Assembly: GCA_037043015.1 (NCBI GenBank)
Contig: CM073321.1
Span: forward strand, 3,167,001-3,231,000
From: Bryum argenteum
Taxonomy: Eukaryota; Streptophyta; Bryopsida; Bryales; Bryaceae
Direction of reading: 5' to 3'
Length of the DNA stretch: 64,000 bases
Shown here: positions 34,869-59,875 of the stretch, piece after piece
How the letters are laid out: each line of letters begins with the position of its first letter
How positions within the stretch are numbered: the first letter of the stretch is position 1
The notes under the pieces: generated by a model
Told to the model about the DNA's origin: nothing
Seen by the model: only the letters and a program-made list of their open reading frames with translations
The model's database searches: none
Made by a program: the position numbers and the translations under genes

Positions 34869-34961
34869 AGAGTGCAATTCGTCCTCGATTTGCTGGCTTA
34901 GCGGCGCGTGGGGGCGGGCCTCCTGTTCGGTCTGGCTTGCTCCCGGGGAAATTGCCGACCG

Positions 34962-37713: not shown

Positions 37714-38166
37714 CTAAGTCCCATGGACTGGTTTTGTGCTTTTGGATTGTGATTCCTCCGTGCCCCTGGATCTGCTCCTCGGTGTTGTGGGTGTGTGTGT
37801 CTTCCGCGGGTCCCGTGCGTGTCCGCTGTGTTCATTCCCGGGTTTTTTGCCTGGCTTGGCCTCGATGCCTTGGGTGTTTGGTGACCCGAGTTGTGTGTCC
37901 TCGGTTGGCGTGGCTGTGTCCGTTTTGTTAGCTAGATCGATGTGGTTTTCTTCCATGTCCCGTGCCTCGGATGCCAACGTGGTGTGAATATCCTGTAGGC
38001 TTAGGGCCGTCCCGGGTTGTGGTCTTTGAGTGTAGTATTGTTTCGATTTTGTGGCGTTGACTATCGTGGCGTGGGGGTCGTAGTTCGTCTTTGTTGACGA
38101 GGAGTACGGTATTGTTAGGTAGAACCAATCTGTATCGTATATGGGCCATGCCATATCGACTCAAAT
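37714..38166 (-). pseudogene. Integrase tail and Thr/Pro-rich region of element B
   Basis: After the GPY/F-like integrase end the frame runs into a Thr, Pro and Lys-rich low-complexity segment (THTPTTPRSRSRGTEESQ). It has no domain. It probably marks the end of pol and the spacer before ORF3. Confidence 0.35.
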
Positions 38167-39017: not shown

Positions 39018-40068
39018 CAGTACTTGCGGAGAGAATCTTTTTTACCGTGGTGTCAGGGCCCTGGTGGCCTCCTGCGGGTCCATCGTGGAGATGTCTGATG
39101 ATCTGCTGCTGCTGTTCAATGGGTACGCATAGCCGGATCTCTTGATCCGGCCCCCGTTTGTATAATTTCCCATGGACCACGGTGTAAGGGAGTGTTGTCT
39201 GCACGAAGCTGACCCTGCGTGTCGCCGTTATGTCCACGGGAGTGTTGCCCGTGGTGAGATATCTAATGATATCGGCCCTCCAGTCGTCCCCGTGCTCCTT
39301 GGTGTCCGTGGCGATTTGTGTGGCTTGTACACAAGCCTCGTTGAAGGAGTCATCTATTCCTTCTGCCGTGGCGTTGGTGTCCCTGGACAAGTAGTCTGCC
39401 ACGATGTGTCGCTTCCCGGGGACGTATACCACTTCGAAGTCGTATTCGAGGAGTATCATGATCCACCGAGCCACTCGCCCCGTGACCAATGTCTGGTTTA
39501 CGAGGTATGATAAGCTGTGGTGGTCGACCATGAACCGGAATTTCTTCCCGAGGAGGTAATGTCTAAACTTTTTGACGGCGTATATCATTGCCAAGGCTTC
39601 CCGCTCCGTGGTGGAGTAGTTTCGTTCGGCCTGGTTGAGTAGTCTACTAGCGTATGCCACGGGTTGATCGTACTTGCCATTTACATTTTGTGCTAGCATT
39701 ACTCCCACGGCAAGATTAGACGCGTCCGTGTGGACGTGGAATGGTTTAGACCAGTCCGGGGCTATGAGTATCGGTGCGTTGGAGTATGCGTTTTTTATCT
39801 TATCCAACGCTGCTTGTGCCTCGGGTGTCCAGTCCCGTGGGTATGTGCACTTGGCATGGTTCAAAGCCGTGATCGGGGCGGTGATGTGGGCTAGTTTTTC
39901 TATATAAATTTGGTTGAACTGTGCTAGACCCAGGAGCCATTGTACGCCTTTTTGATTTGTTGGTGGTGTCATGTCCAGGATGTCTTTGATCTTCTCAGGA
40001 TCGGGAAGCTTGCCATATTTACACACGATATAACCCAAGATAACCCCCGCCAAGTACGAAACATGCAC
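38992..40068 (-). CDS. RT connection, RNase H and integrase zinc region of element B
   Basis: A 358-residue open frame. The RT thumb/connection ([20 protein letters not shown]) comes first. RNase H follows with [50 protein letters not shown] and [13 protein letters not shown]. The end leads to the HHCC region ([20 protein letters not shown]). The frame is intact over its length but is separated from the RT catalytic core by frame changes near 40080. Confidence 0.85.
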
Positions 40069-40097
40069 TTGTCCGCGTTAAGGCTTACCCGTTGGCT

Positions 40098-40660
40098 CTA
40101 CAGCGTGGAAAATTTGCCTCGAGATGCGAAACATGGTCTTTCATCTTGCCGTAGACGGTGCCATCGTCCAGGTAGATGCGGAAGAACTGTTTGAGGTATG
40201 GTCTCGAAGATTAATTCCATGACCCGTTGAAATGTCATGGGTGCGTTTTTGGCCCCGAAGGGCATGCGCTCAAATTGGTACGGTCCCCATTCCGTGGAAA
40301 AAGCCGTTTTACCTTTGTCTTGCTCGCCATGGCTACTTGGTAGTACCTGAAAAAGCAATCAATGAACGAGTACATTTCATGTCCAAAGAACCTCGTCGAT
40401 GATCTCTTCCATGTATGGTAATGGATAATGGTCCTTTTTTGTCGCGGCGTTGAGTTTTCAAAATCCACACGGATGCGCAACGTGCCGTTTTTTTTAGAAT
40501 AATGACCATGGGAGAGAGCCACGGTCGCATCCACGGGCGAAATGAACTTGGCGTGGAGTAGTTTGTCTAGTTCACTTTGACTCGGCGGCGTAGTTCGATT
40601 CATCCTGTACCTCCGTTCTTTGTCTGGGGTGCACCGGGATGAGATCGATGGTATGTTCGG
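40098..40660 (-). pseudogene. RT catalytic core of element B, split over frames
   Basis: Conserved RT pieces occur in order: LRIRVDFE near 40470, [17 protein letters not shown] near 40350 (a changed form of the usual DGYSGY region), and [19 protein letters not shown] near 40240. A YLDDG catalytic box lies at about 40165-40179 in yet another frame. At least three frame changes make it non-functional. Confidence 0.75.
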
Positions 40661-41222
40661 CCAAGGAATTGGGGATGCCTTTCGTGTCCTCGTGGTTCCA
40701 GGCGAATATGTCCCCGTACTCGTGGAACAGGCGATGGCGGGCGGCTTGTTTAATGCCCGTGGTGCGTCTGTGTTGATTTTGATGTACTTGGGCTCGTCCT
40801 TGTTCCGAGGTTGACCACCGTACTCTCTCCTTGGCCCCGTGTGTCCATCCCGTGATGGTTTCGTGATGTAATGCCGTTTTGGTGGGACGGCGTTCACCAC
40901 AACCTCTCCAACTATCTCCGGGTGAAGTGCTCGGGGATATCCAGATTTTTCTTCTTGCATCATACTAGCCAAATGTATGTCCGCCACGGGTATCGGTGCA
41001 GGTGCACGTGGAGTACGAGCCTCTTGCTCATCGTTGAATTCTTCCGCCAATCCGTTCGGCCGAAGTTCGATCTGGTTCATCTTGGCACGGGTCAGACAGC
41101 TATCCACGGGGATGACCACGGTTCTTCCGTGGCGTTGCAGGTGGATCTGATTTTTTGTCCAGTCGTGAATTGCTTGCATGTCTCGCAACCACGGCCTCCC
41201 TAAAATTACCGGAAAATTGTCA

Positions 41223-41609
41223 TCATGTGGCATATCGATGATTACGAATGTTCTTGGTGTTGATACCCGTGTATTGCAATCCCGACCATGGTGAGAATTC
41301 CCGGGGTGTGTGACCGAGCGCGTCATTAGCCATACGTAAAATGAAACGAGCGCTTCGGGGCTGCGGCAATCCTAGTGCTTGTCGAACATGGTTGCTCATT
41401 ACGTTCACGCCCGACCCTCCATCTACGAGGACGTTGGTTAGCGTCTGTCCCCCGAGTTGCACTCGTATCACTGCAGCGTCGGGGTCCAAAGTGGTGGCAT
41501 TAACTTCCACGAACGCGGGATCTGATTTTGCCTCGGTTAACGCAGCCCGTTGTAAATATTGCTGCAGTTCGGGGCTGATTTGTACTAACTTTGCCAGGGT
41601 GATGGTCAC
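41223..41609 (-). CDS. Retropepsin region of element B
   Basis: The open segment of 128 residues shows NVLVDGGSGVNVMSNHVRQ, an aspartic-protease loop with the catalytic Asp present. An ALGLPQPRSARFILRMA strand region follows. The flap and C-terminal strands (VIDMPHDDNFPVILGRPWL) continue in the next frame near 41200. It lies between gag and RT as expected. Confidence 0.7.
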   Translation of the reverse strand: MTITLAKLVQISPELQQYLQRAALTEAKSDPAFVEVNATTLDPDAAVIRVQLGGQTLTNVLVDGGSGVNVMSNHVRQALGLPQPRSARFILRMANDALGHTPREFSPWSGLQYTGINTKNIRNHRYAT

Positions 41610-42016
41610 GTTAGTAGTGTCCAGTATTTGCTGCAGGGTGTGATCCGTGGCACGTCCTTGGTCCGGGAGTGAGGCTTCCAGGTCTTTTTGTATATCTGTT
41701 CTCGGGTTGTGTAGCCGCTCCCGATGTTTTTCTAGAAATGGCTTTCTGTGTTCCGCTCGTGGTTCGGGAATCGCTTTTTTGATCTTGTCGTCATCAAGGA
41801 GGCCGATATCGTGGACACATTAGTCTCTCGTCCGTGCACCTCGATCGGCGTTACCCCTCCCCTCCTCCCGTGAGCCGCGGTGTTTGTGTTCGGGGCCCCG
41901 GGTATTATTGTTTCGATTTTGAGCCCATTTCTGTTTGAATATTGGGCACGCTCCGTCGGTGGTCCATCCCTCCGCATTCCCGCATGCATCGAGCGGCGGG
42001 CCGAAAGGCATCCACG

Positions 42017-43075
42017 TTAACCTCGTCGGGGTATACCGCGGCCATGGTGTTCCCCGGCGCGCCAGGGTCCTGGGGCGGCGTTGTATTGGTGGAATACCAA
42101 AGATCGTCCAAGGTGTGTTTTTCCACGTGTCTCGCACAGGGGTTGCCACCGCATCATCCTGCCGTGTCGAGGGCATGGTAAAATGGGGGCTTGTGTCGCT
42201 TGGGCCGTGAGCTCTCTCACGATGTCGTTTGCGGCAGAGAGAAATGTCCGCAACGTTTTTACGCCACGGATGACAATGCCCTGTTGTATCCATGGAAGTA
42301 GCCCCTTTTTAAACCATTCACACATATACTCCTCTTCGGACCGTTGGCTAAGTTTATCCGCCAACTTCTTGAATCTATCATAAAACTTATCCACAGGCTC
42401 GTTCGTGGATTGAGTAATTGATCCCAATGCTCGGAGGACTTCCGAACTTGTTTTAAGTTTTCGAAACTTGTGTAAAAAACTACGCTCCATATCTTCCCAA
42501 CTGGCATTGTTGTGTTCTGATTCGAAGTCGATGTACCAGTTGATATGGTTTCCTTGGAGCGTGGTACCAAAAATGTTCTGCAAATCCGTGGCATGGAAAA
42601 TGCCGTTCGTGCGCGCGATTACCTTAAATCTCCTGATGTGCCAGTCTGGGTCCCCCGATTCGTCGAACACGGGGTAAGGTATTTTGGGTAACTTAGCTTG
42701 GGCGTCAAGGCTCCCGGGGTTATGTGATACACTTGGGATCCCCGTGGGTACCACTACGGGTGGCGGGGATGGCATTCCCGAAGTGCTTGAGCTGGCCGCG
42801 GCGTTGTTTCCCCGAGGGATGGTTGCCGATCTGGCTGCCTCTGCGGGTTCCCCCTCACTCCTTGGGGTGGAAGCGATAGCCTCGGGGTTACCATTACCTT
42901 GGATATCTTGGTATTTCAGGCTAAGCAGTTCTAGCTTAGCGTTCGTGGCATCGTTCTTAGCAGCCAGATCTGTCATCTGCTGCTTCATCCACTGTAGTAT
43001 CTCCCTGGTTTCATCCTCATGTTGCACTATTTCTTCCATACAGTGAACTTCAAAACTGTCCCAATGTTTGTACAT
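42017..43075 (-). CDS. Gag of element B
   Basis: A 352-residue frame. A coiled-coil start (EIVQHEDETREILQWMKQQ) is followed by a Ser/Pro linker. The capsid-type core is WHIRRFKVIARTNG, NHINWYIDFESEHNNASWED, FLHKFRKLKTSSEVLRAL and DKFYDRFKKLADKLSQ. No zinc knuckle is seen in this frame, and the next 400 bp downstream are frame-broken. The leader and LTR expected upstream are absent. Confidence 0.75.
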   Translation of the reverse strand: MYKHWDSFEVHCMEEIVQHEDETREILQWMKQQMTDLAAKNDATNAKLELLSLKYQDIQGNGNPEAIASTPRSEGEPAEAARSATIPRGNNAAASSSTSGMPSPPPVVVPTGIPSVSHNPGSLDAQAKLPKIPYPVFDESGDPDWHIRRFKVIARTNGIFHATDLQNIFGTTLQGNHINWYIDFESEHNNASWEDMERSFLHKFRKLKTSSEVLRALGSITQSTNEPVDKFYDRFKKLADKLSQRSEEEYMCEWFKKGLLPWIQQGIVIRGVKTLRTFLSAANDIVRELTAQATQAPILPCPRHGRMMRWQPLCETRGKTHLGRSLVFHQYNAAPGPWRAGEHHGRGIPRRG

Positions 43076-43268
43076 GTTACATTCAAAAAATAATGTAGGT
43101 AAGAGAAACTCATGGAATGGAATGTAGTAAATTTATTGAAATAGTACATACAATGTACTAATTGATTACAAAAATTCCAACAAAATTGAAGCGCTCAATG
43201 AGAAAGGAAAAAAACCTAAAGCTACTCTGTACATTGGTACACTTTTGAACGTCCAACATGGAAATTCC

Positions 43269-43538
43269 TCACCACTTTGTCCATTTTCCTCTGGATTTAA
43301 ATACAGTTGCTATTCGTCTGGGCATTGATTCTATAAGTCTCTTGCAATCATCAACAGTGATAGAAGGGAAGGTTTCTTCCACACGAGACCATAATTCAAG
43401 TATCCCTTTTGGTGGTGTGTCATATCGATTCAATCTCCTTTTCAAAATTGCCCATAGATTTTCTATAGGATTCAAATCTGGAGACTGCGCAGGCCAAGAT
43501 AAGACACCAAAAGGTTGCCTAGAAAACGGGCTCGTCAT
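43269..43538 (-). pseudogene. Tc1/mariner (DD34E-type) transposase, C-terminal fragment
   Basis: WPAQSPDLNPIENLWAILKRR is the classic Tc1 C-terminal motif containing the final catalytic Glu. It is followed by PSITVDDCKRLIESMPRR, also typical. The first two acidic residues are missing. The fragment is cut upstream at about 43530, where the DUF7869 copy 2 starts. TGTACATTGGTACACTTTTG at 43229-43248 beyond its end may be the remains of a Tc1 terminus. The Tc1 form (PIENLW) differs from the usual flowering-plant mariner form. Confidence 0.8.
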
Positions 43539-44607
43539 TACTCTCTAACATTCTTTTAGCGTCCAGAGTCTCACAAATGCCTTCACCTACAACGTCCCCA
43601 CAAATGTTGAGAAGTGTCACAAATTTCGTAACCCATTTACTACAGGGCAGTCCGGGGCAATCTTTTAAATGGTCCGGAAGAACAAGCTCGGAAGGGACAT
43701 CCAAGTCCTATAAGACCACAAACAAAGACGAATTAGTACGAATGGATAAACTCAAGACAAAAATATATTAAGCAAAATTAGTAAATCCAATACCTCAAAA
43801 ATAAGACGCTGAAAATCTCTGTCGCCATTGGATTCCCTCAATGCCATGATTACCTAAATGACAGCAATAAATACACAATCATGAGAAATCACTGGTCAAT
43901 TAATATACCTGCAGTCAGAAATGTATATGACCATTGAGAATGTATGGCCATTTAGCTCGACTCGAGCTAAATGGTCATTAAGATAACTGTCCATGACTCA
44001 CCCCGAAGCAAGTGTATAAAGAAGACCATTTAGCTCGAGTCGAGCTACATGATCATCCAACTTCAACAGCTTCGAGGTGAGCATGATGGACAGTTACATT
44101 CATGACCATTTAGCTTGACTCGAGCTAAATGGTCTTCAAGATATTTGTTCATCACGCTAACCCCGAAGCATTTGTAGCTGGATGACCATTTAGCTCGAGT
44201 CGAGCTAAATGGTCTTCTTTTTACACGTGCTTCGGGGTGAGTAATGGACAGTTATCTTGATGCCCATTTAGCTCAAGTCGAGCTAAATGGGCATCAAGAT
44301 AACAGTTCGTCAAGCTCACGAGGCATGTGTATAAAGAAGAACATTTAGCTCGAATCGAGCTAAATGATCCTCCTACAATCATCTCCAAAGAAAAATCAAA
44401 TAGTACTTAGGTGGATGACCATTTAGCTCGAGTCGAGCTAAATGGTTTTTGGAAGTAAAATAGTATATTTGCCTCGATTTCCGTGCACACCAACTCTGAA
44501 GAAATCTACTTTGCCATTAGGAATGCACCACGATGAAGGCAACATATGACCAATTAACAACAAATTCTTGTTACACATTGAAATTGAGGTTGTTGATCGA
44601 ACTCACT
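43530..44607 (-). pseudogene. DUF7869-type gene, copy 2, 5' end only
   Basis: Exon 1 (43847-43794, MALRESNGDRDFQRL) and exon 2 (43707-43530) match copy 1 closely in sequence and splice sites. Copy 2 keeps a Cys codon where copy 1 has a stop near 33666. The copy ends abruptly at about 43530 against the Tc1 fragment. A likely 5'-UTR intron runs from a GTGAGT donor near 44606 to a CTGCAG acceptor near 43909, and it contains the palindrome array. Homology to copy 1 spans 33536-34087. Confidence 0.7.
43951..44442. repeat. Palindrome array 2: seven copies, 77-80 bp apart
   Basis: 21-bp palindromes start at 43951, 44029, 44109, 44189, 44267, 44344 and 44422. Each has arms TTTAGCTCGA and TCGAGCTAAA (few mismatches), often extended to 13-bp arms by CCA/TGG. 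The first five spacers are one sequence family alternating in orientation. The array lies in the predicted 5'-UTR intron of DUF7869 copy 2. Confidence 0.95.
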
Positions 44608-45090
44608 CTCACGCCGTGTCCGACAGCTGCAATACTTCAACGAAGGCCCTGGGCATTCTCAAAAGCAGCACGCACATCAGCTCCAGAGCTACTAAGAGTC
44701 TCAAACCCTAATCAGAATTTACTAAACCGGAAGCACAAATGGGAAACGGAGTACAGGCGAAACGTAGTATAGTGAGACGAACGGCAGAGGTGCGGAGGTG
44801 CGGAGGTGAGGCAAAGGGCAAATGTGTGAAAGTACGAAGGTGCGGAGGAGCAAAGGAGCGGAGCAGCAGAGGAGCGGAGGAGCAACACCAAGCGGGAAGA
44901 GAAATGGTGCCAAAAAAGAGCACGAACTGGACAGAGAAAGGGCGCCAAAAAAGGCCACTAACGGTCAGAGAATTTTGAGTAAAAGCGATGTGGTTGGGAA
45001 CTTCGGGAGGAACGGAGAACTTCACGAGGAACGGGGACATCTTGGGAACTTTGGGAGGAACGGGGACATCTTGGGGGAGTAAAAGTCATT
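44607..45090 (-). promoter_or_regulatory. CT-rich leader and probable promoter of DUF7869 copy 2
   Basis: On the minus strand this is a pyrimidine-rich stretch (CTCCGCTCCTCTGCTGCTCC-like) that looks like a transcribed leader. A donor-like GTGAGT lies near 44606. The far end (44997-45080) holds direct repeats of a GGGAGGAACGGGGACATCTT unit. Open frames here are compositional. Confidence 0.35.
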
Positions 45091-47116
45091 TGAAGTTAAG
45101 TCACCGAGAAATCCAGAATATTTCTAAAAATAGAAATTACATAATTGTAATCAAACAAACCGGATTCGCGAGGAAAATGGATAACCCAAACTCAAATTAA
45201 CAAAATAATCACATATTGGGCACTAGAATGTTAACACCTAAATGCGCCGAATGTCGAAAAACGACATTTTGGATGGAAGGCAGCTCTTTGAATAGCCATA
45301 TCTTCTTCATCCGAGGTTTGTTTTGGATGAAATCACTTGAGTTATGCTCCAAATCAAGTCTAGTTTGTATTGTAAAATTTGCAATAAAGTATGAATTACT
45401 GGAATGCAGTTTAGTGAAGACAGATCTTCTATTTTATTGGAGCTCCAAGCATGGGGCATGTATTATCATTGCAAGCCAATTATGTGAAATTAAAAATAGT
45501 TTTTCATGATTTGCTTTTTCATGGTCATGATCTTAAGGTGATTCTTAACAACTTTTATAGTGACAAGTATACTGATCATAATGATTTTGCTATTCGATTT
45601 GCAATGATGTTTCGTCAACATAAAAAGTAACAAAATGGATGATATTTGAGGAGCCATATCTCCTTCATCCACCGTTGGATTTCAACTTAGTTTTTTGGGA
45701 TGGCCTATAATTACAGTCTAGTCTGAGTGATAGAAACCTTAACTAGATCTAAGATGTTTTGAAGATAAGGCATGAAATTTAATGCAAAGGTTCTAGTTTT
45801 CGACTATTTTTCCTTTGTAAAATTTTCGGTAGTTTTTACCAAGGCATTCATTTACATGGCTTTTATTTGAGCCAAGAATTTCTAAAAAAATAATTTTTGT
45901 GGCGAGTTAATGTATGGCGAGTTAATGTATTATCAGTAAAGAAATTAGTCGAGTTTACATCAAACCATAAGACCGTAATGAAAAACTCTAAACCCTAGAC
46001 CATAACTAACTTAACTTTTGATATTTTAAAAATCGATAACTTTAATAATAAAACTTTTACCATTGTTGCAAACATATTTTACCACAATTCATCCGACTAC
46101 ACAAAGAGAAAAAGAAACTTCTAGTTGTTAAAGAGATAGTGTCATTTGTTATTTGAACCTTTACAAGATTACCTTAAATAGAGTATAGAGAGAAAAACAT
46201 GAAAATATTTAATTACATGAAACTTATACTTAATAAATGTTCAGAGGGAAAACAAATTTTTCTCGTCGTGTACCTTGGATTGATGTAGTCTTGACTAATT
46301 TAATTTAATTTTATACTAAATAAGTACGCAGAAGTTCAAAGAGTTTCGTAGAGCTGTGATAGAGTAGGAAATGGAGAGTAGAATTATAGAATAATTATGT
46401 GAATCTATTTGTTTTACTTCCATATTTCAATCCTAACAATTGTTAGGTTTATTTTAGTGAATTAGCATGTGAAATGGTGAACGCTATTAACATTTGCTAA
46501 GCCTTTAAGCCTAGCGTTTATGCTCAATTTATCAAAATCGACAATTGATGTGAAGTATTGTAAGATTCGTATTTACTAAAATACGTGTAATATTAAAAGA
46601 TTAATACTTTGTACATTAAAACAATTATAGTAAATAAAATATTGAATTTATTTAAATGTCATTCTATAAGATTAGTTTCTACTTAATTAGGTGTGGTATA
46701 TTAAGTATGATATTCAATTATGCTGAATGTGGTATTCTACAAGTTGATATTATAAACATAATAATCAATATATTTCTGTGAGATACTATTATATAAGTAT
46801 TTAGACAGTGAATAAGTTGAGGAATTATAAGTTTATTACTTACTTTTTCAAGTGTATTATTTCCATATATGATATTTAAAGTATAATATTATTGGTTTAG
46901 AATCAAGTCTTGTTAACATTCAGTGAGTAAATATATTTTGCAGGTTTAGTATTCTATGTGTGATATTCAAACGTAATAATATTTAGTTTTACTTCAATTC
47001 TTATGCTAAGGTGATTTTTATATTATGGTATTCTAAACCTATTTTCAAAAATTTAGATTGTATCCGCATTTACGCTTTCTTCCATAAAGTTGCTATCTAG
47101 CTTCTATCTTTACTTT

Positions 47117-47275
47117 TCATCCTAAATCTTTAACTTCAAAAATAATTAACCTTTAATCCTGAACCCTTAACCCTACAACCAAAACCTTAATTCCTGAACT
47201 CTATAACCTAAATCCTATATCGTAAACCCTATACTAAATCTTTAACCCTAAACACTTAACCTTGAATCATAACTA
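47117..47275 (+). repeat. Degenerate telomere-like (CCCTAAA-type) tract
   Basis: Successive 6-9 bp units such as AACCCTA, CTTAACC, AACCTAAATCC, AAACCCTATAC and AACCCTAAAC run in one orientation for about 150 bp. The pattern resembles a decayed interstitial plant telomere repeat, but no long perfect run remains. Confidence 0.4.
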
Positions 47276-49005
47276 CTACACTGTAAAATATTTTAAACTT
47301 GGTAGTTACTTTGAACTCCATTCCGTAATCATGGAAAAATATCGAAAAACACAAATTTTAGAATTCGCCCGTCCAACACTAGATAATTTTTGAGATTATA
47401 GGTATTTTTAAGTTAAAGGTATTTTTTAGTATTACGTAAACTTTTTTAAGAATATAAATTTAAATTGTTTTAAAGAATAAAGAATAAAAACGATATGTAA
47501 AAAATAACTTAGACAATGTTTAAATAAAAAGTTATCATTTATTAAACTAGGTTAAAATTATTATGAAGTAAGGCTTTTAGCAATTTATCCTTATGATTGA
47601 AGTTATATACTATTTCCGAACATAATTCTTATTTCTACAACTAACACAAAACACGTGACATTACACGTAAGTATGCATTAGGTATATATATGACCTCTTA
47701 AATTAAGGAATGGTGCGGCGGCCAATAAACTTGTATTTTGTTTTAAAAGTATATTATATTATATTATATTATACGAAAAGGTGACCGAGATGCTACTAGC
47801 AACATTTTGATTACAGAGATTCGAGAAGCATTTTTGCAAGTTTTGAAGGTTAGGAAGAAACAACATGAAGATGAACGTGAGGTGAGTCGTTTACTTGAAG
47901 ACTTAGAAGAAGACATCGATCGATGTGATCGATCGATTTCACGTAGATTGAAATTGACTGATTGTGACTGCCTCTAGAATGGAGTATCTCTTATATCGAT
48001 TCCAGTATATTCTATAACCTTGGACGTCTATAGGATCACTGTCTTGGGAATTTGAAGTCATGGCCGAATTTTTAGTGTTTTTGATTTTTTTGATGGGGAA
48101 TACTATGAGTTCTTCAAAGGGCCGGTTCACATTACGGCAAAAATGCGAGAAGTTTTTCGACTTTATAGTTTATTAAACTATATCAAACTAGATTTATTAT
48201 TTTCTTATATTAAACTATATTAATTTTTATTTAATATATTAATGTGTTTTATTTTACTATATTATACTATATGAAAATATATTTCTTATTTAAGTATATT
48301 AACTATTACCAAATATGCTATTATATACTATTTTACTATATTAAACTATATTAAAATAATTATTATTATATCATATCATGTTAAGTTATGTTGTATTATA
48401 CTATTATACTTTGAATTTTTATTATTATACATAGAATAATCTATTGTACTTTAAAATTTATAATAATATTTGGTATCTATCATTTCTAGTAGTTGAATGT
48501 GAATTTTTATTATGTTTTGTTTCATTAGGATATTTCCTTGCTAAATGAGGAAATGTAGATTTGCAATCATGTGCATTCTTATACATAAATTAAATGCAAT
48601 TTGAATTGAGCGTTTATACTTTATTCCGTTCCTTGCTAACAATATGCTTATTGCATACAAAATTACCTAATGTAGGTGAAATAAATTAAATTTTAACCCT
48701 TTTCAATTAGATAATTACGTTGCAATAATAAAACTTGTCCTAACTTTGAAATCAAACATCAAAAAGAACCATTTTAAACAAACAGTGAAGGAAATTAGTG
48801 AAGAACTCTAAGCAAGGACTGGAATCTCAATCCAATATGTCAGATGTGAAGACTTAAAACGAGGGAGATTGATAACGTTATGAGCATACCAACCTAAGCG
48901 GGTAGGATTGATCTTTGTAGGATTGATCCACTTGACTCCGCTCCCCGCTTGATTCCTCCATTGAATCAATCTGATAGTTGCTACCGTAGAATGTCTGCAA
49001 ATGAC

Positions 49006-49077
49006 ACAAGTTGAGTGTCGTCCCTCGAGACAAGTTGAGTGTCGTCCCTCCAGAAAAGTTGAGTGTCGTCCCTCCTA
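49006..49077. repeat. Three tandem copies of a 24-bp unit
   Basis: ACAAGTTGAGTGTCGTCCCT plus four bases recurs at 49006, 49030 and 49054. On the minus strand it encodes a repeated GGTTLNLS-type octapeptide inside a 112-codon open frame of unknown value. Confidence 0.75.
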
Positions 49078-51062
49078 TTTTTTTCAAGGAATGTAAGCAA
49101 TCGGAATAGAAGGCGATGTAGTTGAAGCGCAAGAGGTTCTTCTTGCTTGATTCAAATTTTACAATGTCACCCGTTACATAGGGCGTCAAAGTTTCCTCGT
49201 GAATTATGATCGACACGATGAAAATATAAATAATACGAACTTAATTGTTTAAAGTTTCGTTTTATTCATTAATTTTGATAAAATCATAAGATTGGATTCC
49301 TAAAATTTAGTTTAGATCTTAAATAAATATTTGAGTGTTACTAGTTTGTACTAGAGGATCACAAGTGTCAAGTTAGTACTTGCGGGTTTCAAAATTGTAG
49401 TGGCGGGTCACAAGTTCGTACTTCTAGTTTCAAGTTTGCATTAAAGGATCCCAAGTTTGTATTTAGGCTTGAAAACAATAATAGTAAAGGAGTCTTTTGT
49501 ATTTCATTTTGTCTTATGTATTTGTATTTAAACAATCATAAATAATTGGATCCAAAGTGAATTTCTTTAGACTTCAGTTCAATGCACTCATTTAAATAAA
49601 ATGATAAGATTAGATTTTTAAATTCGATTGGGATCTCAAGTTAGTTCTTGAATGTCTCTAGTTTGCCTTAAAAAGTAGTAATCCGGCTTACACCTGTATA
49701 TAGTAAAATTATCAATCTATAATATATCCATCTTTATCATAATTGAAAACTTGCTGAATGAGGTAGGCAATGATTGTAATTGATACCGTTTGTAACGTTT
49801 ATGGTGACAAATTCATACATGCGATATTTTGAGTCTATTTAGGCGCTTTAGGGTTAATCGACATGTTCGGTTTTAATTAAAATTGCTTATATCTCTCATA
49901 ATTACATAAGTTTAAGGTTAAACGTCATGTACAAAATTAAGTCTCATAACATGAATACCATAATTCTTATGATGAATGCACTCCTATGGGTTTAAATGCA
50001 CCAAATCGGTAACCAAAATTTTGCATGCAAGTAGCTAACTTGGAATCCTACTTGAACAAAAATATGCCATAAATTTTTGAGGTAACGAACTTCAACTTGC
50101 CCTTGGCACCATTTGCACTATGTGTCCCGGACAATAGCGAAAGAAACTTTTGCATCAACTTTGAACGTTATGATCTCACAAATGGAAAAGATCCAACGGT
50201 TGAAATTTTCATCAACAGATCAAAATTAAGTAAGGTACAAGATCTTACGGTTGGATTTCTCAAATTTGTAAAAACGTTTGATGCAGATGGCCGGGAGTGA
50301 ACAGGACTCAAAACAGGCAGGTTTGAGACTTCTTGCTCCCGAAACATCAAGGAAATTTAGGGGTTAATAAGATACTCCTACGTATCGACTGATGATCAAG
50401 TCATTGATCAGCAGCAATTTTCCATCGAATTTGACGATTGATCAATCATCAACATCACTATGAAGTGTAAATTCGCGAGCGACTGGGAGCTCACTTGCAA
50501 AAGAGATAATTGTAGACAAAATTTGAATTTATTAACATCTAATGCACTTGAATTCTCATTTTCCTTCTACACATAGTTGTTTTTAGCATATGATACTTTT
50601 AACATGTTTACTACATATAAATGATCTTATTTCGGTATTTTAGAAATGATAATATCCTCCTTATTCAAACTTAAGAGGGTTAATGTAAATGATGACAGGT
50701 ACATTCGTTACTCTTATATTTCATTTGTTGGATTGTTTCATTTTTTTAAGGTTCTTTTAAGGTAATACAAGTACAACAATCTTATCCTCGTATTTTATTT
50801 AATTACATTTCACTTATTATTCAAAGTTTGAATGTATTAAAACTTTTGCAAAAAACTCATAGCATATAAAGTCAATTTTTTCACAAGTTATACAAGTTAT
50901 AAATATAACCATCATTTTTATAGGATTCCTTTTTAAGATTTAAAAATATCTTTATTCACCTTATTTTGATTTCCTTCCAATTAATCAACATTTTAACCAA
51001 ATAAATTAAAGTAATTGAATTGTCAAAACAAAAAAAATAAAAAATAAAAATTTAAAAAAACA

Positions 51063-51517
51063 AACGAGCAACTTGGGCAGCCTAAGGAGGTCAGCTTAGC
51101 CCGGGCAGCCCGAGCAGCCCGGGCAGCACCCAAAGGCGGCGGACGGGCTTTGTACAAGGCGGGAGCGGCCTCCTCCCGACAGGTCTGTCCGCCTGCCTCC
51201 CCCCGCCCAACTCCCGCGCCTCTCTCGCGTTGTCTAGTTGTTGTTCATCGTGCGGTGTCGCTGTGTCGGTGTTGCCTTCACGCCTACTTGCGCCTGCTCT
51301 GCGCCTGCTCCGGCCTTCCATTTCCTCGTCATCGTTTCCAGCTCATCAAGCGCATTTTTCCACGAGCTTTTGCGCGTCCTCGTCCTCGTCCTCGTTTCCT
51401 GCTCGTTCTCATTTCCTGCTCGTTCTCATTTCCTGCTCGTTCTCATTTCCTGCTCGCTGATTTAGGACGCTGCCACGTCCTCATCGCATTCTTTCACGAC
51501 CTTCCAGCGCAGATTGT
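51063..51517 (+). promoter_or_regulatory. GC- and CT-rich leader of the DGQHR-like gene
   Basis: An abrupt shift from AT-rich to GC-rich DNA occurs at about 51063, beginning with GGGCAGCCC-type repeats. A CT-rich stretch follows, with a 17-bp unit (TTTCCTGCTCGTTCTCA) repeated at 51395, 51412, 51429 and 51446. A GTAAGTTT donor at 51518 suggests this is the 5'-UTR exon. Its intron would end at the CAG acceptor at 52423 just before the ATG. The same plan is seen upstream of DUF7869 copy 2. Confidence 0.4.
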
Positions 51518-51701
51518 AAGTTTATAATTTTGAATTTTAGGTTTTACATTGAGGTTGCGCTTTTGGAGCTTGTTCTGTACATTGCATGGCACAATGTTTT
51601 AGAATTTTGCTTGCAGTGTAATGGCATTCACGCAAATTTGTGTTCTTTGCTTCAAAATTTGTGTTTTCTGCTGAAATGTGCTCATTTCAACTTTCAGCTC
51701 A

Positions 51702-51781
51702 TTTAGCTCGATGCCCATTTAGCTCGATGCCCATTTAGCTCGATGCCCATTTAGCTTGATGCCCATTTAACTAGATTAAAT
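51702..51781 (+). repeat. 16-bp half-palindrome tandem repeat
   Basis: TTTAGCTCGATGCCCA recurs at 51702, 51718 and 51734, then with changes at 51750 and 51766. Each unit has only one arm of the palindrome. The last ends in a degenerate palindrome. It directly precedes the regular array. Confidence 0.9.
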
Positions 51782-51811
51782 ATTATAATTCTCCAAGACA
51801 ACCCAAGCCCA

Positions 51812-52321
51812 TTTAGCTCGAGCCGAGCTAAATGCTCTCGCACCTTGTTTCAGGGCAAGCCCATTTAGCTCGACTCGAGCTAAATGGACTCAATACTCTG
51901 GTTGAGGTCAAGCCCATTTAGCTCGATTCGAGCTGAATGGGCTTGACCTGAAGCCAAGTAGCAAGTCAATTTAGCTTGACTCGAGCTAAATGGGCTTGAC
52001 CTCAAAACGAGGTTCGCGACCATTTAGCTCGACTCGAGCTAAATGGTCTCGAACTGGAGCCAAGTAGTAAGTCCATGTAGCTCGACTCGAGCTAAATGGG
52101 TCTGACCTCTAACGAGGTTCGAGACCAATTAGCTCGAATCGAGCTAAATGGGCTCACTACTTGGCCCCAGCTCAAGCCCATTTAGCTCGACTCGAGCTAA
52201 ATGGTCTCGAACCTCGTTTTGAGGTCAAGTCCATTTAGCTCGAGTCGAGCTATATGAGCCTGTAAGAGTGCACAAGGAATAGGAATACTGCTCAAGCCCA
52301 TTTAGCTCGAGTCGAGCTAAA
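51812..52321. repeat. Palindrome array 1: ten copies, nine at 52-53 bp spacing
   Basis: Palindrome centres are at 51822, 51874, 51927, 51980, 52033, 52086, 52138, 52191, 52244 and 52311. The first eight intervals are 52 or 53 bp and the last is 67. Arms are TTTAGCTCGA and TCGAGCTAAA, with the central base mostly C or G. Spacers 1-8 fall into two families, present in both orientations. The array is in the predicted 5'-UTR intron of the gene starting at 52426. Confidence 0.97.
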
Positions 52322-52425
52322 TGATCTCGCCAGTGAATCAAGACTTGCAAAATTATACTTCTCTGATGTGCGTGTATATTGCTGTTGTGAATCTTACATG
52401 TATTTCTTTTTATTGAATGACAGTG

Positions 52426-55400
52426 ATGCCGAGAACGAGAACCACTACCAAAATTGTTCAGACGGCTGCGAATGCACCTGCCGAGCCTAAAGTTGAAGTC
52501 GATATGGAAGCGGAGGAGCCAGAGTCTGTTCCTCACGTAAAACTCCACCTCATATTCATATGCCCATCTGGTGTGTCCATTTAAATCGAGTTGAGTTAAT
52601 TTGCCCTCTGTACATTTGTTATCCATAGGTCACTTACAACATGCAAGCACTGGAGGGATACCTTGAACCAGTCGTTCACGAATCAGCAGACAATTCGCCT
52701 GCAACCATTGCTGAGGACGTGCAATGGGGGAGGTTGTGGACCCCCAAGAGAAATTCCATCGTCTCTTGGTCTATTCGTTCGATGAACAAGACCCATTTCT
52801 TCTTCTACCAACAGTCGGGGTCTCATGGGGCATTTCTACCTCTGTGTCTTGATGCTTTCATCGGTCTTGTTACTTATGAAGACGCATACCTCCTGATCAA
52901 GTTCGAAGCGTTGGAGGTCGAAGGTTTCCTCTTCACTATTGTATTTCCGCCCAATGAAGTCCGATTCTCCCACGACTTCATCCGCAATTATACGGTCGGG
53001 AAGGTCAATCCCACTCAACTTCATCATCTTGACATGAGATTGGTGCCCAATGTTTCTTCGCCAAAAGCCTTCGTGAGATTGTACATTCCTTACACGGTGC
53101 AGATTCGGAAGGCTCTGTCTGATTTCAAGACTGCGAAGAAGAAAGGGAAGGCTCCGATGAAACGGACCGGGAATCTACTGTTGCAGGCTCCATCCGAAAA
53201 TGCTCCGTCGGGTCTAGGCACTTCAGAGGGAAGTCTAGGCGGGCAGGGAACGAAGCGGACAATCCCAATCTCATCCAGCTCTGGCTCCAAAAGGAGCAAA
53301 TCCTTCGGCAGCGCACTTACGTTCATGAACCCCACAATGAACGTGGTTGTCTCGGAAAAGGAGATCAAGTATCAGGAAGCAACGAAGGCTCTCAAGGACT
53401 ATTGGAGCAACTGCGCAGACTGTTATGTCTTTGGTCGTGACGATCCGCTCGACGTGTCGATTGACCTGCTCGACCCTGCAGAACCAGGATTTATCGTGAG
53501 ATCTTTGGAACCGACCGGAATTGCCTATTACAAGAACATATTGATGAATTCCCTTCAATGTTAGTTCCAGGCAAACGATCATCATTATGCCAAAGATTAA
53601 AGATGAGTCTGAGATTTGGGATTGGGAAGTGCTGGTCCAAACTTGTCGGTTCCGGATTATCGATGGGCAGCACCACGTTGAGGTTGCGAAACAGTTGATT
53701 CGTGACAAGAAGGTTGACGACGCGAAGATCCTTGCCCTGCAGACATGGAAAGCCCATGTTGTGTGGCATTCAGACATTAGCAAGATTATGGATGTGTCGG
53801 CCATGGTGAACAAGACGAACAATGCTGGCACCTTCATTCCTTCATGGGCAATGAACATCAAGGGCGCAAGAAAGGTTTGGGAAGATTACGGTCGCCCGGT
53901 AAAATTGAAGAAGCCACACCAACGTGAAACAGCGGTTGAAGAAGATAACCGTAAACGATATGAGGTATGAGATTACTTATTCTTTTCTGTTTCTGTTTGG
54001 CTTAATTCGCATCGTATGTCGACGTTTTTCGGTGACATCGTTTTAGCTCGACTCGAGCTAAAACAACATATCTTGTTCCTTATTCGTTTGGCTTTGGTCC
54101 AGGCATTCACGGCTACTATGGTGAAGAGGTTCATAAGCATCAACACAAACGCGAGGGACAAGATTGTCAGTCCGTCCGACCTTTGCAACGAGCTCCTCAT
54201 CATCACATCTCCGGACGATGTCTACGAGTTGTGGTCGAGGTCTATCACCGACTACGGACTTGGAGAGCTGATCGACCCCGACACTGAGCTACCAGTTAAT
54301 CAGGCGAAAGATTGGAAAACCATCGCAAAGAAGTTCACCTTGAACAGGGAGTTCTTCAAGGGAATGGGGCAGCTAGACGTAGAGGACCTCGAGGTGTTGG
54401 CGCTGCATTTGTTGAACGAGACTCCGGATTGGACATTGCTTTACCCGAAGGTGGCGGTGAAGAAGCCTGCAAAAATGTACTTCCAGTGCATGAGCGCAAA
54501 ACAGTGGGTCAAGAACCGGAAGAGGAAGAACACTGTCGCAGGGAAAATGCACAACCTCAAGCCCTCGCTTGGTTTATTCAACTCGGAGTGGGAATTCGAC
54601 GCTGACAGCCAAAAGAAGTTTAAGAAGACAAAGAATAAGAGTGCAGAAGAAATTTCGGAATATGCAGCCGAGTTCTTCAAGAAGTTCCTGGATGTCAAAG
54701 GGACATTTGAACCTCCTGCATCAATTGTTTACACGCGGCACTTCTACTCATTGGAATTCAGATTCGGGATTTGGGACAAGGACTACGCCTGGAGCCAATC
54801 TAGCAAGTTTGATATCGGCTTCATTGATTTGCGATCTGTCCCTAGAAGTGGAAGTAGAGTGGACGACACGGAGAGTCCATACTTTCAAGAATTCCTTGAT
54901 ACTTGGGCAGACACCGTGACCGATCCTCACATCAAGAATCCCGAGGTCTGGATGTTCATCACCTCAAATGTCGACCGACACTGCCAGGCAGTGGTTTACG
55001 TTGATAAGAAGTTGAAGGATGAGTACGCTCGCAAGGCAGCCAACTACATGCTTTCCTGCAACGAGCGTTTCAATGGCATAGGAGAGGAAAAAGCTTCGGA
55101 GAAGCACCTGCTCCCCTTGCTCTTCCTTGTCATGAAGAGCAGCCGCGCAAAGAATGTCCTGAATACAATTCCACTTGTATTCTATGCGCCAGACTTGCCC
55201 CTCTACTCGAAGTCCGGGGCGTACAAAGAACACGACTTAGGTCTTAGTCACTTTGAGCTGCAATTGGAGTTTTATTGTCGTGTGTTGAAGATGTTTTCAT
55301 CTCCGGGGGGGAAGTTCTTATCGATAATGGCTGGCACAAAGCCAATGTTGGCTGGAATTGTGAGTACCTCACACCATTCCTTTAATTGTAAGTACATAGG

Positions 55401-57286
55401 CTCGTTTAGCTCGAGTCGAGCTAAACGATCTCATGCTCGTTTAGCTCAAGTCGAGCTAAACGGTCTCATGCTTAAATCTTTTCATTCTTTGTATTTTGTT
55501 CATGGCCTTTTAGCTCGAGTCGAGCTATTTCGTCTTAGTCTTCTTATAAGTTTCTATCTCCTTCTAAAACAGATGTGTCAGGCTGAGACATATGTTGTTA
55601 TTAGCAAGAACGAGGCGGAGGCTTATACAAATGCTGCAGCGGACTATCAACATTTGGACTACAACGATATCAACGTTGCAGCATACATAGATCCGGAAGC
55701 TAATGCCGTTCCAAAGCCTGGTCCTGGGGGGTCGGGGAAGGGGAAGAAGAGGAAGTCAAAAAAGAGGTCCCGCAATTGACTGGGAAGCTGTGGCAATTCC
55801 GTCTAGTACTGCTCGTGCTCCCCCTCGTGGTCGTGGTATTGCTCGTGCTCCCTCTCAGGGTCGTGGAAGCGGTTGAGCTCGGTCTTCAGCGTCTCGTAGC
55901 CGCGGTACAGGACGCGCCCCCCCCGCGCAAATCCGCTAAGCGTTCTTCTTCTGAGATGCGAGATGGCGAGGCTTCTCGGTCGAGAAGCAATACCGTGCCT
56001 CAAGCACAAAGGGCGCTCGCATTCAATTATGACGCCTGCGATCTCGTCGGGGACACAGAGAGCCCCCCACTTCAGTGTCTGCGTCGTGGACGATCTTCCG
56101 GTGAGGATTTAGCTCGAGTCGAGCTAAACGAGCAGTCTCATGGGGTCGTCGATCTTGGGGCCGCTAGGACTCTGGTTGGACAGACGGTTCCACCCTCGGG
56201 TTTTCGAAGGGAGATTCGTTTAAAGAACTCGAATGATGGAGTCTACCGGGAGATCTTTAGCGAAGATGATGTAGTGCCTGGCCAAAAGCGACTGCCACGG
56301 GATGCGCCAACTTCCTACAGCTCTGACTCGTCCGACAATGACGATGTTGAGGATGCGAGCGACGACGATGACAGCGACGACGATGACCGCGCTGATGATG
56401 CTGACCCCGTGGCCATGACTTTAGGCGACAAGGTGGATCCTGATCCATCCCACGACGAAACTACTTTGGCGGCTGCTCTCCAATGCCCACAGATTGCAGC
56501 CAGGAGGCAGATTGAGAAGGGGAAGTACGACAAATGGTTCGTGAAAGGAGTGTGGAAGCCCGAGGACGAGCCGGAGGATAACATAGAAATCCGGTATTAC
56601 GACTTCTCGGAGGAGCCTAGTTCTCCAAAGCCAAAGAGCACTGAGGATGATCCTCTTCTCCATGTCGTGCCTCCGCTCAGGGAAGAAGGAGAGCCTTCAC
56701 AACCACCACTGAAGCTAGAAATTGTCGCCCCTCTGCTCACGAAAAATCAGAAGCGTGAACAGAAGCTGCAAGAGAAGGAGCGCGGAAGGCCCTCAAGGCA
56801 AAGGAAGAAATGGAGAGAGAGAAGCAAAGGTTAGCAGACATTGCAGTCCAGAATGTACGAGTTGACAGATTGGAGTCCACCCTCCTAAGCTCTCAGTCTG
56901 AAACTCGCATGCAGCTAGGCAAGATGGAGAAGATGTTTCTTTCATTCGGGAATATCTTATCCCAATTGCCTATTTCTCTCCCCATTGCCTCCATCAACTC
57001 TGATCAACATCGCCTCAGCATCTGTGACGCGAGTCCACGAGCCATCGTCGCGCCTCCACAACCTCCTCATGTTGCTGAACCGGAGATCGCACCCCGCCCC
57101 ATACCCCTCGAGATTTTGGATAGGCCTGCACAAGGGCATGATGTCCCAACTGAGGTTACGGCAACGCCGACGCATCACACCGCTGCAGTAGCATTGGGTG
57201 TGGGGGAGAATGCAGAGGTTGTCCCTTCCCGTGACTCTCCCGTGGCTGCTATCGAGACGGCTAAGTCTTCATGTTTGTCTTTGTGA
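52426..57286 (+). pseudogene. Palindrome-bearing multi-exon gene with DGQHR/ParB-like motif
   Basis: Exon 1 is 52426-52536 (MPRTRTTTKIVQTAANA). Exon 2 starts at 52629, exon 4 spans 54103-55359 and exon 5 starts at 55573; donors and acceptors are consensus and all junctions are phase 0. A one-base frame change near 53560 separates exon 2 from the frame carrying FRIIDGQHHVEVAKQLI (53647-53700). That motif resembles the DGQHR/ParB-type fold; DDPLDVSIDLLD before it fits the same fold. Later parts are a Lys-rich tail, a frame-broken RGRG-type segment (55800-55920), acidic runs (DDDDSDDDD at 56365), and a coiled coil changing frame near 56780 (EEMEREKQRL). Palindromes lie in its introns and in an exon (56108). 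Not a known family to me; I infer a transposon-borne nuclear protein. Confidence 0.5.
54042..56128. repeat. Dispersed palindromes within the DGQHR-like gene
   Basis: Copies start at 54042 (intron 53965-54102), at 55405, 55440 and 55509 (intron 55360-55572) and at 56108 (coding, read as LARVELN). Several have the CGTTT/AAACG outer form rather than CCATTT/AAATGG, so they form a sub-family. A degenerate one lies at 52580 in the first coding intron. Confidence 0.85.
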
Positions 57287-57589
57287 TCGTTGTTGGTTAT
57301 GGCAGTTGCTCTGCTATTTCCTCATGTCTTGAAGTTTTCGTATTTTGTAATCTTAAAGCCGGCGCTCCTTGTTTGACAGGAGTCTGGCACCGATGGCGGC
57401 GAGTAGGTTGACGAGTAGTCTCCGAATTATTGGATGTTGTTTTGCTTTTTGTACATAGTACACTTATAAACGTTGTACTCATTGAAACAACATTCAATAA
57501 AATTGAGACTCTTTTTTTGTACATCACTTTTCGTCTTTATTGAGTCTGCGTCCTTCTCATCACAAGGTCCTAAACATCGTCATTTTCTA

Positions 57590-59436
57590 CCAGGCCCCCC
57601 TTCTGAATACCTTGTTCCGTCCGATTGCTTCAAAATCCCCCACCAACCACCTCATGTTAACTCTGGGTGTCGCGGTTCAATACCAAATGACTGCTGGCAG
57701 TTCTTTGCATACTTCAGCATTTTGCAAGGTACACACCGTCTTGTTTTAATACCATTTGCCATTGTTACGTGTTCCCTTGCTGCAAGCCGGACCGTCCAAA
57801 CAGCCGAAATAGCGTATCTCGCCCGAGCTACCTATTACGCATATGACGCGCAGTCTTTTATAATCCAAGTCCAAGTGGTTGAATGTGGTGTTGGAGTTGG
57901 ACGGGCTTCTATGTTCGATGGCCTCTGTGTCTACTCCAACGCCTGCAGAGTGCCTGTCTATTCTGGATCCCAATAATCCTCCGATGTTTTCCTCCACCAT
58001 CCCAACCTTAGTTGCCGGCAGGGTCGTCTACTGTCGTCCCGGGTTGACCGGGTTCTTTTGCTTATTAGATTTGTTTTGCCCCATCTACGTCTGGAGTACC
58101 CTAGATCCTAAGGTTGTCCATGGACTCTGCTCCTTTTTGTTCTCGAAGTCAGACGTTGCCCCTGGACTTGTCTTGGCTTCCAACCAATGCGATAATCTGT
58201 TGTTGAAGAATTACGCATTCCCCAAGTACCCCCGCACGACAAATTCCATCCTCTTAAAATATCCTCGGCGTCGGTTGTATCCTAGGAAGGGTGCCGATTT
58301 CAATGACGATAAATTGCTCATTGTCGATTCCGAGCCTGAGACTTGCATTGCGGTTTCCACAAAGAACACACTTTTCACTGTTCCGTGGAACCATTCCTGT
58401 CAGGAGGAGCCAAAGTCCGAGTTGTTAAAAAGGATAGGCGAGATATGTCTTGCCGTGCATTTGAACAGTCCTGAGAATTTCACGAGACTATGCGCTATCA
58501 TAGAGCCACGCATAATGAACTGTCGAAGGACTCAGAGTTGTATATGCTCCTGAGCCGTAATGTCCCATATTTGTGGAATGAGGACCAAATCACTGGAAGA
58601 ATTTGCCTTGAATACTTTCATCATTGGTATTATTCTGATATTTACCCTAGAAACCTTATGTTTATCGGTTGCTTAGATGCAAATATATTGTGGATCAATT
58701 GGTGAATCCCCCCTCGACATACGTGATTAAATGCGTTGTTATATTGTGTACCTTTTTTATTGCACTTAGTGTCATGGACTCACTTTCTAAAATGGGTGTG
58801 TTTATAAACCAGGTTGCTGCCGTTGGACGTCAGCTCTCTCCACTTCCATCATGTGCTTTGCAAGCAAATCTTGTAATTGGTCCTTCAACGGTGTCAGATG
58901 CTTCCATTACAAGTGAGGACTCGAGAACTTTCTTGGAACGAAAGCGGGGTCGGTTGATCTACTGTGCTCCGGACGACGCGTCGGCTGTAGATTATACGAA
59001 GAAGGATATGGATAATGACGAGGACGGTGTAGTAGACAGTCCCCCTATTCAGACTCAACCAAGTATTGCAACCGGCCATGATCGAATCGGTGTGATGACC
59101 TCGGTTGCAGCGGCACCCCAAGGTGAGGTTGTATTTCGCAACTACGTCGTAGATGGCCGTGTCTATTTAGCTCAATTTGATCTAAATAGTTCCTTGCCGA
59201 ATATTGTGCCTCATTGCTCCTTGTCTCTTGGGGCAAACACTCGCGTTCATCTTGCACGATTATCGTCCGAGACTCATCATCTATTACGGAGACGTACATT
59301 GAAGCGTCGTGGAAATGGTGCGCTTATGGAGATGGATGAGCCCGCATTCTCTAAATACACACGTAGTGAAGAACCTGTATTCACTAAGAAAGATTCTAGT
59401 GGTGATACCTCCTCTCCGCCACGTCGTGATTGGTAG
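57590..59436 (+). pseudogene. Unrecognised gene downstream of the DGQHR-like gene
   Basis: Protein-like frames run on the plus strand in three pieces. 57879-58553 contains PRRRLYPRKGADFNDDKLLI. 58490-58705 contains ELYMLLSRNVPYLWNEDQI. 58669-59436 has a basic patch (FLERKRGRLIY), an acidic patch (DMDNDEDGV) and an Arg-rich tail (HHLLRRRTLKRRGNG). The pieces overlap in different frames, so introns or frameshifts are present. A degenerate palindrome at 59166 lies in the last frame. I considered a Ulp1-type protease, which often accompanies plant transposons, but no His-Asp-Cys pattern was convincing. Confidence 0.35.
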
Positions 59437-59844
59437 ATAATATAATGCCTACCTATTGGAGCTCTACAATTACACCAATAAATTGTATTTGTGCTTTCAT
59501 ATCAATAAATTTTTCTCTTGGGGAAACATATTTCTTAGCTTGCATTATGATTTTCTTTCTATTATTGTCTTTTATATTGAAAAAATTCATCATTATCAGT
59601 ATATACCTGGTGATTTGGTAAATAATTAGGTCAGAATCAATCTAAATGGAAGTCTCCCTAATTACCAAAATCAGTATATATTCCCATTATAACGAATTGC
59701 GTGTTACATATACTATATCCTACTATCAATGTACAATCTAGATGTTGAGGATGATATTTTTATGCATGCCCCTACCCTCAGCTTCAACGAGGTGAAGAAG
59801 ATCATTTAGCACGGACTTCTAGACTATCATACTTAAATACTCAT

Positions 59845-59875
<31 letters not shown>

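Follow-up and report, generated by a model that had tools for sequence, protein, structure and literature searches.

Introduction

Self-recognition of transposons through motif arrays is best known from the VANC system of Arabidopsis. Two reports describe the short VANC motifs of Arabidopsis VANDAL elements as forming tandem arrays, both upstream of the genes that the element carries and within their introns, which gain and lose units fast and whose motifs differ between related families, and they present the transposase as better conserved than the accessory protein (PMC5735166, PMC10398659). In soybean, a 20.5-kb CACTA element carries palindromic subterminal repeats whose binding protein is thought to diversify with them, and the repeats of Tgmt* lie within 159 and 732 bp of its two ends (PMC2613891). 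A third kind of repeat, found in the introner elements of Amoebophrya, consists of inverted repeats by which the two intron ends pair with each other and which appear able to spread (PMC7789003).

Here, we analyzed a window of 64,000 nucleotides from Bryum argenteum (C1:3167001-3231000), in which a DNA transposon carries regular arrays of a palindrome. The genes recognized by eye on the plastid contig of the source genome (chlB, matK, psbA, ndh genes and rbcL) are indicative of a streptophyte. By analogy, this element would probably work like the VANC arrays, in an unrelated transposon that is not a VANDAL. It resembles VANDALs in where its motif arrays lie (within introns and upstream of genes), in the fast turnover of these arrays, in motifs that differ between families, and in a DUF7869 protein that is better conserved than its exons A and B. 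It differs from them in its 21-bp palindrome, its spacers in both orientations, its AACACG termini and its 4-bp target duplication, as well as in a DUF7869 protein as the candidate transposase and a candidate reader with weak ParB/DndB and methyltransferase-like signals. A Pfam scan of 26 ORFs from element copies, with exons scanned singly, found no Mutator-like (MULE) transposase domain, and the VANC domains DUF1985 and DUF287 were found neither in these 26 ORFs nor in the 10 exon members scanned.

Similar to the CACTA elements Spm/En and Tgmt* (PMC2613891), this is a large element with palindromic repeat arrays and a proposed element-encoded binder that would diversify with the motif. In contrast to them, its arrays lie kilobases inside, on the leader sides of its genes, and its protein domains differ. 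Membership of the CACTA superfamily was rejected on the basis of the termini, which read AACACGTAATT and not CACTA, and of the duplication, which is 4 bp and not 3 bp; the tnp2 transposase domain was absent from the 26 ORFs. The likeness to introners lies in inverted repeats within introns and in an apparent ability to spread (PMC7789003), but here the palindromes are internal to the introns examined, form arrays and belong to a large transposon. Tagging by motif arrays would be a general strategy if the present system, found in a distant green lineage and with a different type of transposon and of protein, is a second and independent one.

The palindrome array lies in a DNA transposon

The first-pass annotation had described ten palindromes, eight of whose steps in a row measure 52 or 53 bp, and both statements proved accurate. 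The array at 51812..52321 consists of ten near-perfect copies of the 21-bp palindrome TTTAGCTCGA-N-TCGAGCTAAA, of which four are exact and six have one mismatch. They start at 51812, 51864, 51917, 51970, 52023, 52076, 52128, 52181, 52234 and 52301, with spacings of 52, 53, 53, 53, 53, 52, 53, 53 and, finally, 67 bp. Beyond this array, the window contains 16 further palindromes, including a seven-copy array at 43951-44442 with a period of 77-80 bp; the resulting 26 matches (up to three mismatches) compare with 0.01 expected in shuffled sequences. The exact palindrome occurs 5,878 times in the 258.8-Mb genome, and the reversed, non-complemented control word does not occur in it at all. A 33-bp version was present at 17 places, 11 of them on chromosome C1, while a first, longer guess at the palindrome yielded no matches. 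Searching viral contigs with the palindrome also gave none. Directly before the array, at 51700-51769 (+), tandem half-sites (CATTTAGCTCGATGCC) recur with a 16-bp period. Among the literature matches listed for the two half-words, no title was transposon-related, and the titles and abstracts of the best matches included no paper on this element.

The unit that bears the array is a DNA transposon (30611..59705), as indicated by inverted terminal repeats and by identical 4-bp duplications outside its ends. The left terminal repeat, AACACGTAATT..TTATAATGG.., occupies 30611..30638 on the plus strand and the right one 59678..59705 on the minus strand, and the target duplication, ACAT, is found at 30607..30610 and 59706..59709. 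A comparison with 15 stretches of C1 showed that 30.6-34.1 kb and 43.5-59.7 kb of the window form one repeated unit, split by a Gypsy-like block. The element is multicopy; it measures about 20 kb without this block, and nine other long copies measure 16.2-21.5 kb. An initial reading of the locus as a host gene with a promoter array was dropped when the terminal repeats and target duplications were found.

We examined 15 end pairs, ten from long copies and five from derivatives of 151-166 bp, which were picked by plausible distance among the first 100 terminal-repeat places listed, together with copies already in hand. The 4-bp duplication was identical on both sides in all 15, a result which, given the preselection by spacing, speaks for intact pairs and not for the fraction of copies that are intact. 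Because the flanks of L012 and L024 are homologous and thus trace to one insertion, the 15 pairs stand for 14 events. The miniature elements, of 151 and 166 bp (L060-L062, L012 7889-8054 and L024 8413-8578), share the ends of the long copies and have 4-bp duplications as well as degenerate palindromes.

Several other features of the element were noted. A piece of it of about 555 bp flanks the Gypsy-like block on both sides (about 33530-34090 and 43526-44081), and in L015 and L021 related Gypsy-like sequence adjoins the same part of the element. Its central region contains a degenerate plant-type telomere-like repeat (CCTAAACCCTA) at 47147-47262. In a CpG-decay comparison, CpG/GpC ratios of 1.4-2.4 in three F1 copies (the family of the window, see below) gave no discrimination.

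Genes of the element

Exons and splice sites of the plus-strand gene were read from the sequence alone. The ten-copy array lies within a predicted leader (5' UTR) intron, 51516..52423 (+), which is bounded by GTAAGT..ACAG and followed by an ATG at 52426. A predicted first coding exon (52426..52536) continues in frame, across intron 1 (52537..52628), into exon A (52629..53964), whose C-terminal part is ParB/DndB-like in look and whose frame is broken near 53555 in the window copy. Exon A is followed by intron 2 (53965..54102), by exon B (54103..55387), the C-terminal half of which models as an amino-methyltransferase-like fold (model of the L016 copy), and by intron 3 (55388..55572), all on the plus strand.

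Divergent from this gene is a minus-strand gene (31315..33506) with a DUF7869 domain (E 1.3e-31 in the Pfam scan), whose product we infer to be the candidate transposase. A first look at the genome gave 1811 DUF7869 candidates (150 of them scored), many in other long open frames, so that DUF7869 proteins seem to be widespread in this genome and shared by several groups of elements. The DUF7869 protein had no relative among the viral contigs. DUF7869 and exon A genes formed divergent pairs about 8-11 kb apart at no fewer than 11 places, matched by eye among the matches listed.

A 307-aa exon A query gave 129 scored places of 573 candidates, and stop-free exon A frames occurred, among the matches listed, on C1 and several other chromosomes. 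The copies were grouped into families: F1 is that of the window, F2 and F3 are 45-49% identical to F1 over the 307-aa query, and F4 (L013, L014, L019 and L025) and F5 (L020) are more distant from F1. Between F1 and F4, identity is 38-55% for the DUF7869 protein, 24-40% for exon B and 30-34% over part of the length of exon A, with one 40-residue piece of the latter at 45%.

Downstream of the exon A/B gene, the element has a gene for a NIF/SCP-like phosphatase (57864..58460, +). A copy of it in L019 (8016-8822) scored E 9.1e-13. The first phosphatase motif, which is DLNG in F4 but ELDG in F1, presumably deviates from the canonical one, and the protein is perhaps inactive. An NCBIfam scan returned this phosphatase and otherwise chance-level rows.

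Placement of the palindromes

All 26 window palindromes are inside the element; the flanks, the Gypsy-like block and exons 1, A and B have none. Each of the four delimited introns of the plus-strand gene contains the motif: ten copies in the leader intron, one decayed copy in intron 1 (52580, five mismatches), one exact copy in intron 2 (54042) and three copies in intron 3 (55405, 55440 and 55509). The intron 1 palindrome is kept with 1-2 mismatches in seven other F1 copies (L016, L023 and L051-L055). The DUF7869 gene has, on its leader side, the seven-copy array and, left of the Gypsy-like block, two palindromes at 33957..34057. The remainder are single palindromes: a one-mismatch copy at 31007..31027, about 400 bp inside the left end, an exact one at 56108..56128, and a three-mismatch copy at 59166..59186, about 520 bp inside the right end. 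Across the window and 15 C1 loci that had been chosen for having the palindrome, 206 of 232 palindromes are within 1 kb of sequence common to another locus; the remaining 26 all belong to L020, in which 25 precede exon A, at the place expected for a leader. There is no palindrome in the 7.4-kb central region between the two arrays or in at least one intron of the DUF7869 gene. Thus, the palindromes do not cover all non-coding DNA, unlike what a pure silencing shield might do.

We consider it probable that the palindromes constitute a leader-intron self-recognition array for a dimeric protein that the element itself encodes. Such a protein would bind the palindrome and mark the element's own DNA, sustaining expression of its genes and/or countering host silencing, and its binding may also help transposition. 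The first candidate would be the product of the gene directly downstream of the array, with its ParB/DndB-like and methyltransferase-like parts. The first-pass annotation had proposed an oligomerising DNA-binding protein as the reader of a helically phased array; a dimeric or oligomeric reader is, by inference, the most likely explanation, while the phased array was not upheld as a design rule.

It is also conceivable that the palindromes serve the transposition complex as binding sites, much as the subterminal repeats of CACTA/Spm elements do for TnpA, and that the big arrays are extra copies of such sites. The single palindromes close to the ends, at distances of about 400 and 520 bp, are consistent with this role, as are the degenerate copies in all five short derivatives (four insertions), whose best matches have 2-4 mismatches compared with 5-7 or more in shuffled sequences, and as is the soybean element with its subterminal repeats. 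However, the large arrays are not subterminal, their distances to the closer end being roughly 3.5 and 7.3 kb in the L022-L023 copy, and the end-proximal palindromes are inexact (1-3 mismatches in 5/5 ends examined). We therefore regard transposition sites as an unlikely primary role.

Conservation of the palindrome across families

In 238 F1 and 100 F4/F5 palindromes, each of the 20 arm columns was 92-100% conserved and the centre base was free, in a set found with up to five mismatches, a selection that by itself favours conservation. The outer flanks, which lie outside the hit-selected core, are family-specific and palindromic too. They read CCA..TGG in F1, with 83-89% conservation per column, and AG..CT in F4/F5, with 88-93% conservation and an adjoining C/G at 64-67% (CAG..CTG).

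The first-pass annotation had offered selection or recent amplification as the source of the regularity, and there is evidence of both. Selection on the palindrome is indicated by intron 2, where the 21-bp core is kept while the surrounding sequence no longer aligns across the five families. The motif is present in intron 2 of all five, at one locus each and degenerate in F2, and the palindrome-masked introns aligned no better than shuffled sequences in 10/10 family pairs, with approximate limits for the F4 and F5 stretches. Likewise, F1 and F3 share the motif in intron 1, and their masked sequences are unalignable there, whereas two copies of F1 can still be aligned. In L059 (F3), the palindrome is present in both introns 1 and 2.

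The leaders of related copies either kept or changed the motif. The F1 palindrome is retained in all six F1 relatives with 55-93% identity (L051-L056), in degenerate form in L056. Leaders were also compared for seven of the 21 places with 45-49% identity. Six of these were F2 leaders (L044 and L046-L050), none of which had the F1 palindrome at up to four mismatches and all of which had 30-bp repeats of TTTAGGTAGCTGCCTNCTAAACGCACA instead; the F3 leader, L045, had a 104-bp repeat with TTTAGCTCGAACCAAGCTAAG. Arrays of the F2 motif, TTTAGGTAGCTGCCTNCTAAA, which has 207 exact copies genome-wide, occur in the F2 leaders and, in both F2 copies compared there (L057 and L058), in intron 1 as well, and intron 2 of L057 contains intermediate forms such as TTTAGGTCGACTCCACCTAAG and TTTAGCTGGACTCGAGCTAAA. 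The presence of kept-motif and changed-motif families in one genome makes coevolution of protein and site directly testable.

These comparisons bear on the idea that the palindromes have no function and are a neutral tandem repeat that hitch-hikes in the transposon and expands since palindromes recombine easily. The varying number and period of the arrays and the duplicated and inverted spacers (see below) would be expected of such a repeat, but it would hardly account for single-copy palindromes kept in the same introns of families that are otherwise unalignable there, for fixed arms with a free centre, or for the fact that F2 has a different motif at these positions. We judge a neutral repeat to be very improbable.

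Alternatively, the palindromes could act in RNA, with leader-intron hairpins serving as a source of small RNAs, a splicing aid or a protein target. They do lie in predicted introns, and folding is far stronger than in shuffled sequences for the window array (z -26) and for the L038 leader (z -49), although strong folding in F1 is expected of any palindrome array. In F1, conservation dips slightly at the two positions flanking the centre (0.93 and 0.95, versus 0.95-1.00 at most arm positions), as a hairpin loop would also cause; in F4/F5 these positions are 98-100% conserved. In contrast, wobble pairs showed no strand bias, with 38 G-T versus 30 A-C in F1 and 17 versus 14 in F4/F5, where part of the set (e.g., seven in L014) is on the divergent gene, for which the strand label is reversed. 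Compensatory changes on both sides were found in 9 of 2,380 pairs in F1 and 0 of 1,000 in F4/F5. This lack of strand preference and near absence of compensatory changes argue for recognition of the DNA sequence. Furthermore, the two homologous F2 leaders examined, with the other motif, fold little better than shuffled sequences (z -4.3 and -6.2), and an Rfam search of 43000-60000 of the window gave no match. On these grounds, selection for RNA hairpins was rejected, and an action in RNA appears quite unlikely.

Spacing and history of the arrays

The 52-53-bp steps had been interpreted as an almost exact five-turn helical phase that would place every binding site on the same side of the helix. 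As a rule, this phasing did not hold, since other arrays have periods of 32-38, 44-46 and 77-80 bp. Nor would all sites face one way within the element, because its partner array has a period of 78.5 bp, or 7.48 turns, which would put neighbours on opposite faces. Among 21 arrays of at least four palindromes (window and 15 C1 loci), modal periods of 46 (four arrays), 78 (three), 53 (two) and 54 bp (two) were found, and periods of 33, 35, 38, 44, 45, 52, 60, 80, 88 and 93 bp once each. A 10.5-bp phase was absent from these 14 distinct modal periods (R 0.22, p about 0.5) and from the 40 distinct spacings (p about 0.4). A 10.5-bp phase was present when all 149 spacings were pooled with relatedness ignored (R 0.24, p about 2e-4), a statistic in which related arrays are not independent, and it was borderline with one vote per array (p about 0.06; 0.045 at 10.6 bp). 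The 52-53-bp array alone may be under a local constraint.

The spacers between the palindromes point instead to a history of copying. In F1 leaders, 169 of 227 spacings at 19 loci were 52-53 bp; L023, an F1 copy outside this set, was much less regular. Amplification of the array, the other process that had been suggested, was borne out by F1 spacers duplicated in direct and inverted orientation, at least two of each occurring in 19/20 arrays. Of 1,167 F1 spacer pairs, 266 were related directly and 326 in inverted orientation, and some of these calls are ambiguous because the spacers are partly self-complementary (0.525 versus 0.428 in shuffled sequences; 46/213 above their own 95th percentile). 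In a wider set, with another threshold, 12/21 arrays had no inverted pair, most of them from other families or with few spacers. The L038 leader has two spacer types in the repeated order A+ B+ A- B-.

Since the spacers recur as duplicated and inverted units, the 52-53-bp period looks as if it was inherited from a set of units that was repeatedly duplicated and inverted. The even spacing would then have arisen by repeated duplication and inversion of palindrome-bounded units, and it looks like a record of copying rather than of helix engineering. A palindrome reads the same both ways, so recombination or template switching between copies could flip a spacer and leave the site undamaged. The palindromic form makes array inversion visible in the sequence.

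Candidate reader protein

ParB-parS partition systems, the site GANTC of CcrM and HinfI, and fusions of ParB with methyltransferases are known from prokaryotes and phages. The element's exon A/B gene resembles these in a weak ParB/DndB similarity, a second half that models on amino-methyltransferases and the GANTC at the centre of its palindrome. It differs from them in that it belongs to a eukaryotic transposon and is predicted to contain introns, and in that the DPPY motif was not found.

Structure models and profile scans identified no DNA-binding domain with confidence in the element's proteins. The exon A model had a mean pLDDT of 36 and the exon B model (L016) one of 50. In profile searches, four of ten exon A members matched the ParB-like family phrog_1033 weakly (best E 0.012) and two of ten matched Pfam DndB (best E 0.026), below the cut-off level of confidence. 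Overall, the ParB/DndB matches had E values of 0.012-0.3, below normal thresholds, and unrelated families scored alike (DUF5622 0.054, RusA 0.084 and, on another ORF, Mis12 0.013). No ParB- or DndB-type PDB chain was matched, comparing exon profiles with PDB chains yielded no informative hit, and a phage tblastn search gave no match. The best viral structure match was a phage protein named ParB/Sulfiredoxin.

The C-terminal half of exon B, in a weak model, resembles amino-methyltransferases of the beta class or MT-A70 fold, CcrM among them. The catalytic motif of amino-methyltransferases is DPPY or a close variant, and the DPPY-like pattern [DNSE]PP[YFWLI] was absent from 10/10 exon B translations, of which eight have a conserved G-x-I-D-[LF] segment. 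The GANTC at the palindrome centre may be coincidence, since GA stands beside the centre of any such palindrome about once in 16 by chance. We put forward as a tentative and rather doubtful possibility that the transposon took over a bacterial-type DNA-modification module as a sequence-specific reader, in which a ParB/DndB-like part would be combined with an amino-methyltransferase-like, probably non-catalytic part, and that the GANTC-centred palindromes would be a coevolving self-tag against silencing.

Chromosomal distribution

Copies of exon A are concentrated on C1, to which 100 of the 129 scored exon A places belong and which makes up 17% of the genome sequence. The first 1.31 Mb of C1 contains about 76 exact palindromes per Mb, compared with 22.7 per Mb genome-wide. 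C1 may be a sex chromosome or another chromosome of low recombination. At C1:3324663-3325583, 105,022 bp downstream, there is a protein-level duplicate of window 52641-53561 that is identical at 307/307 residues, and this exact match suggests a recent segmental duplication.
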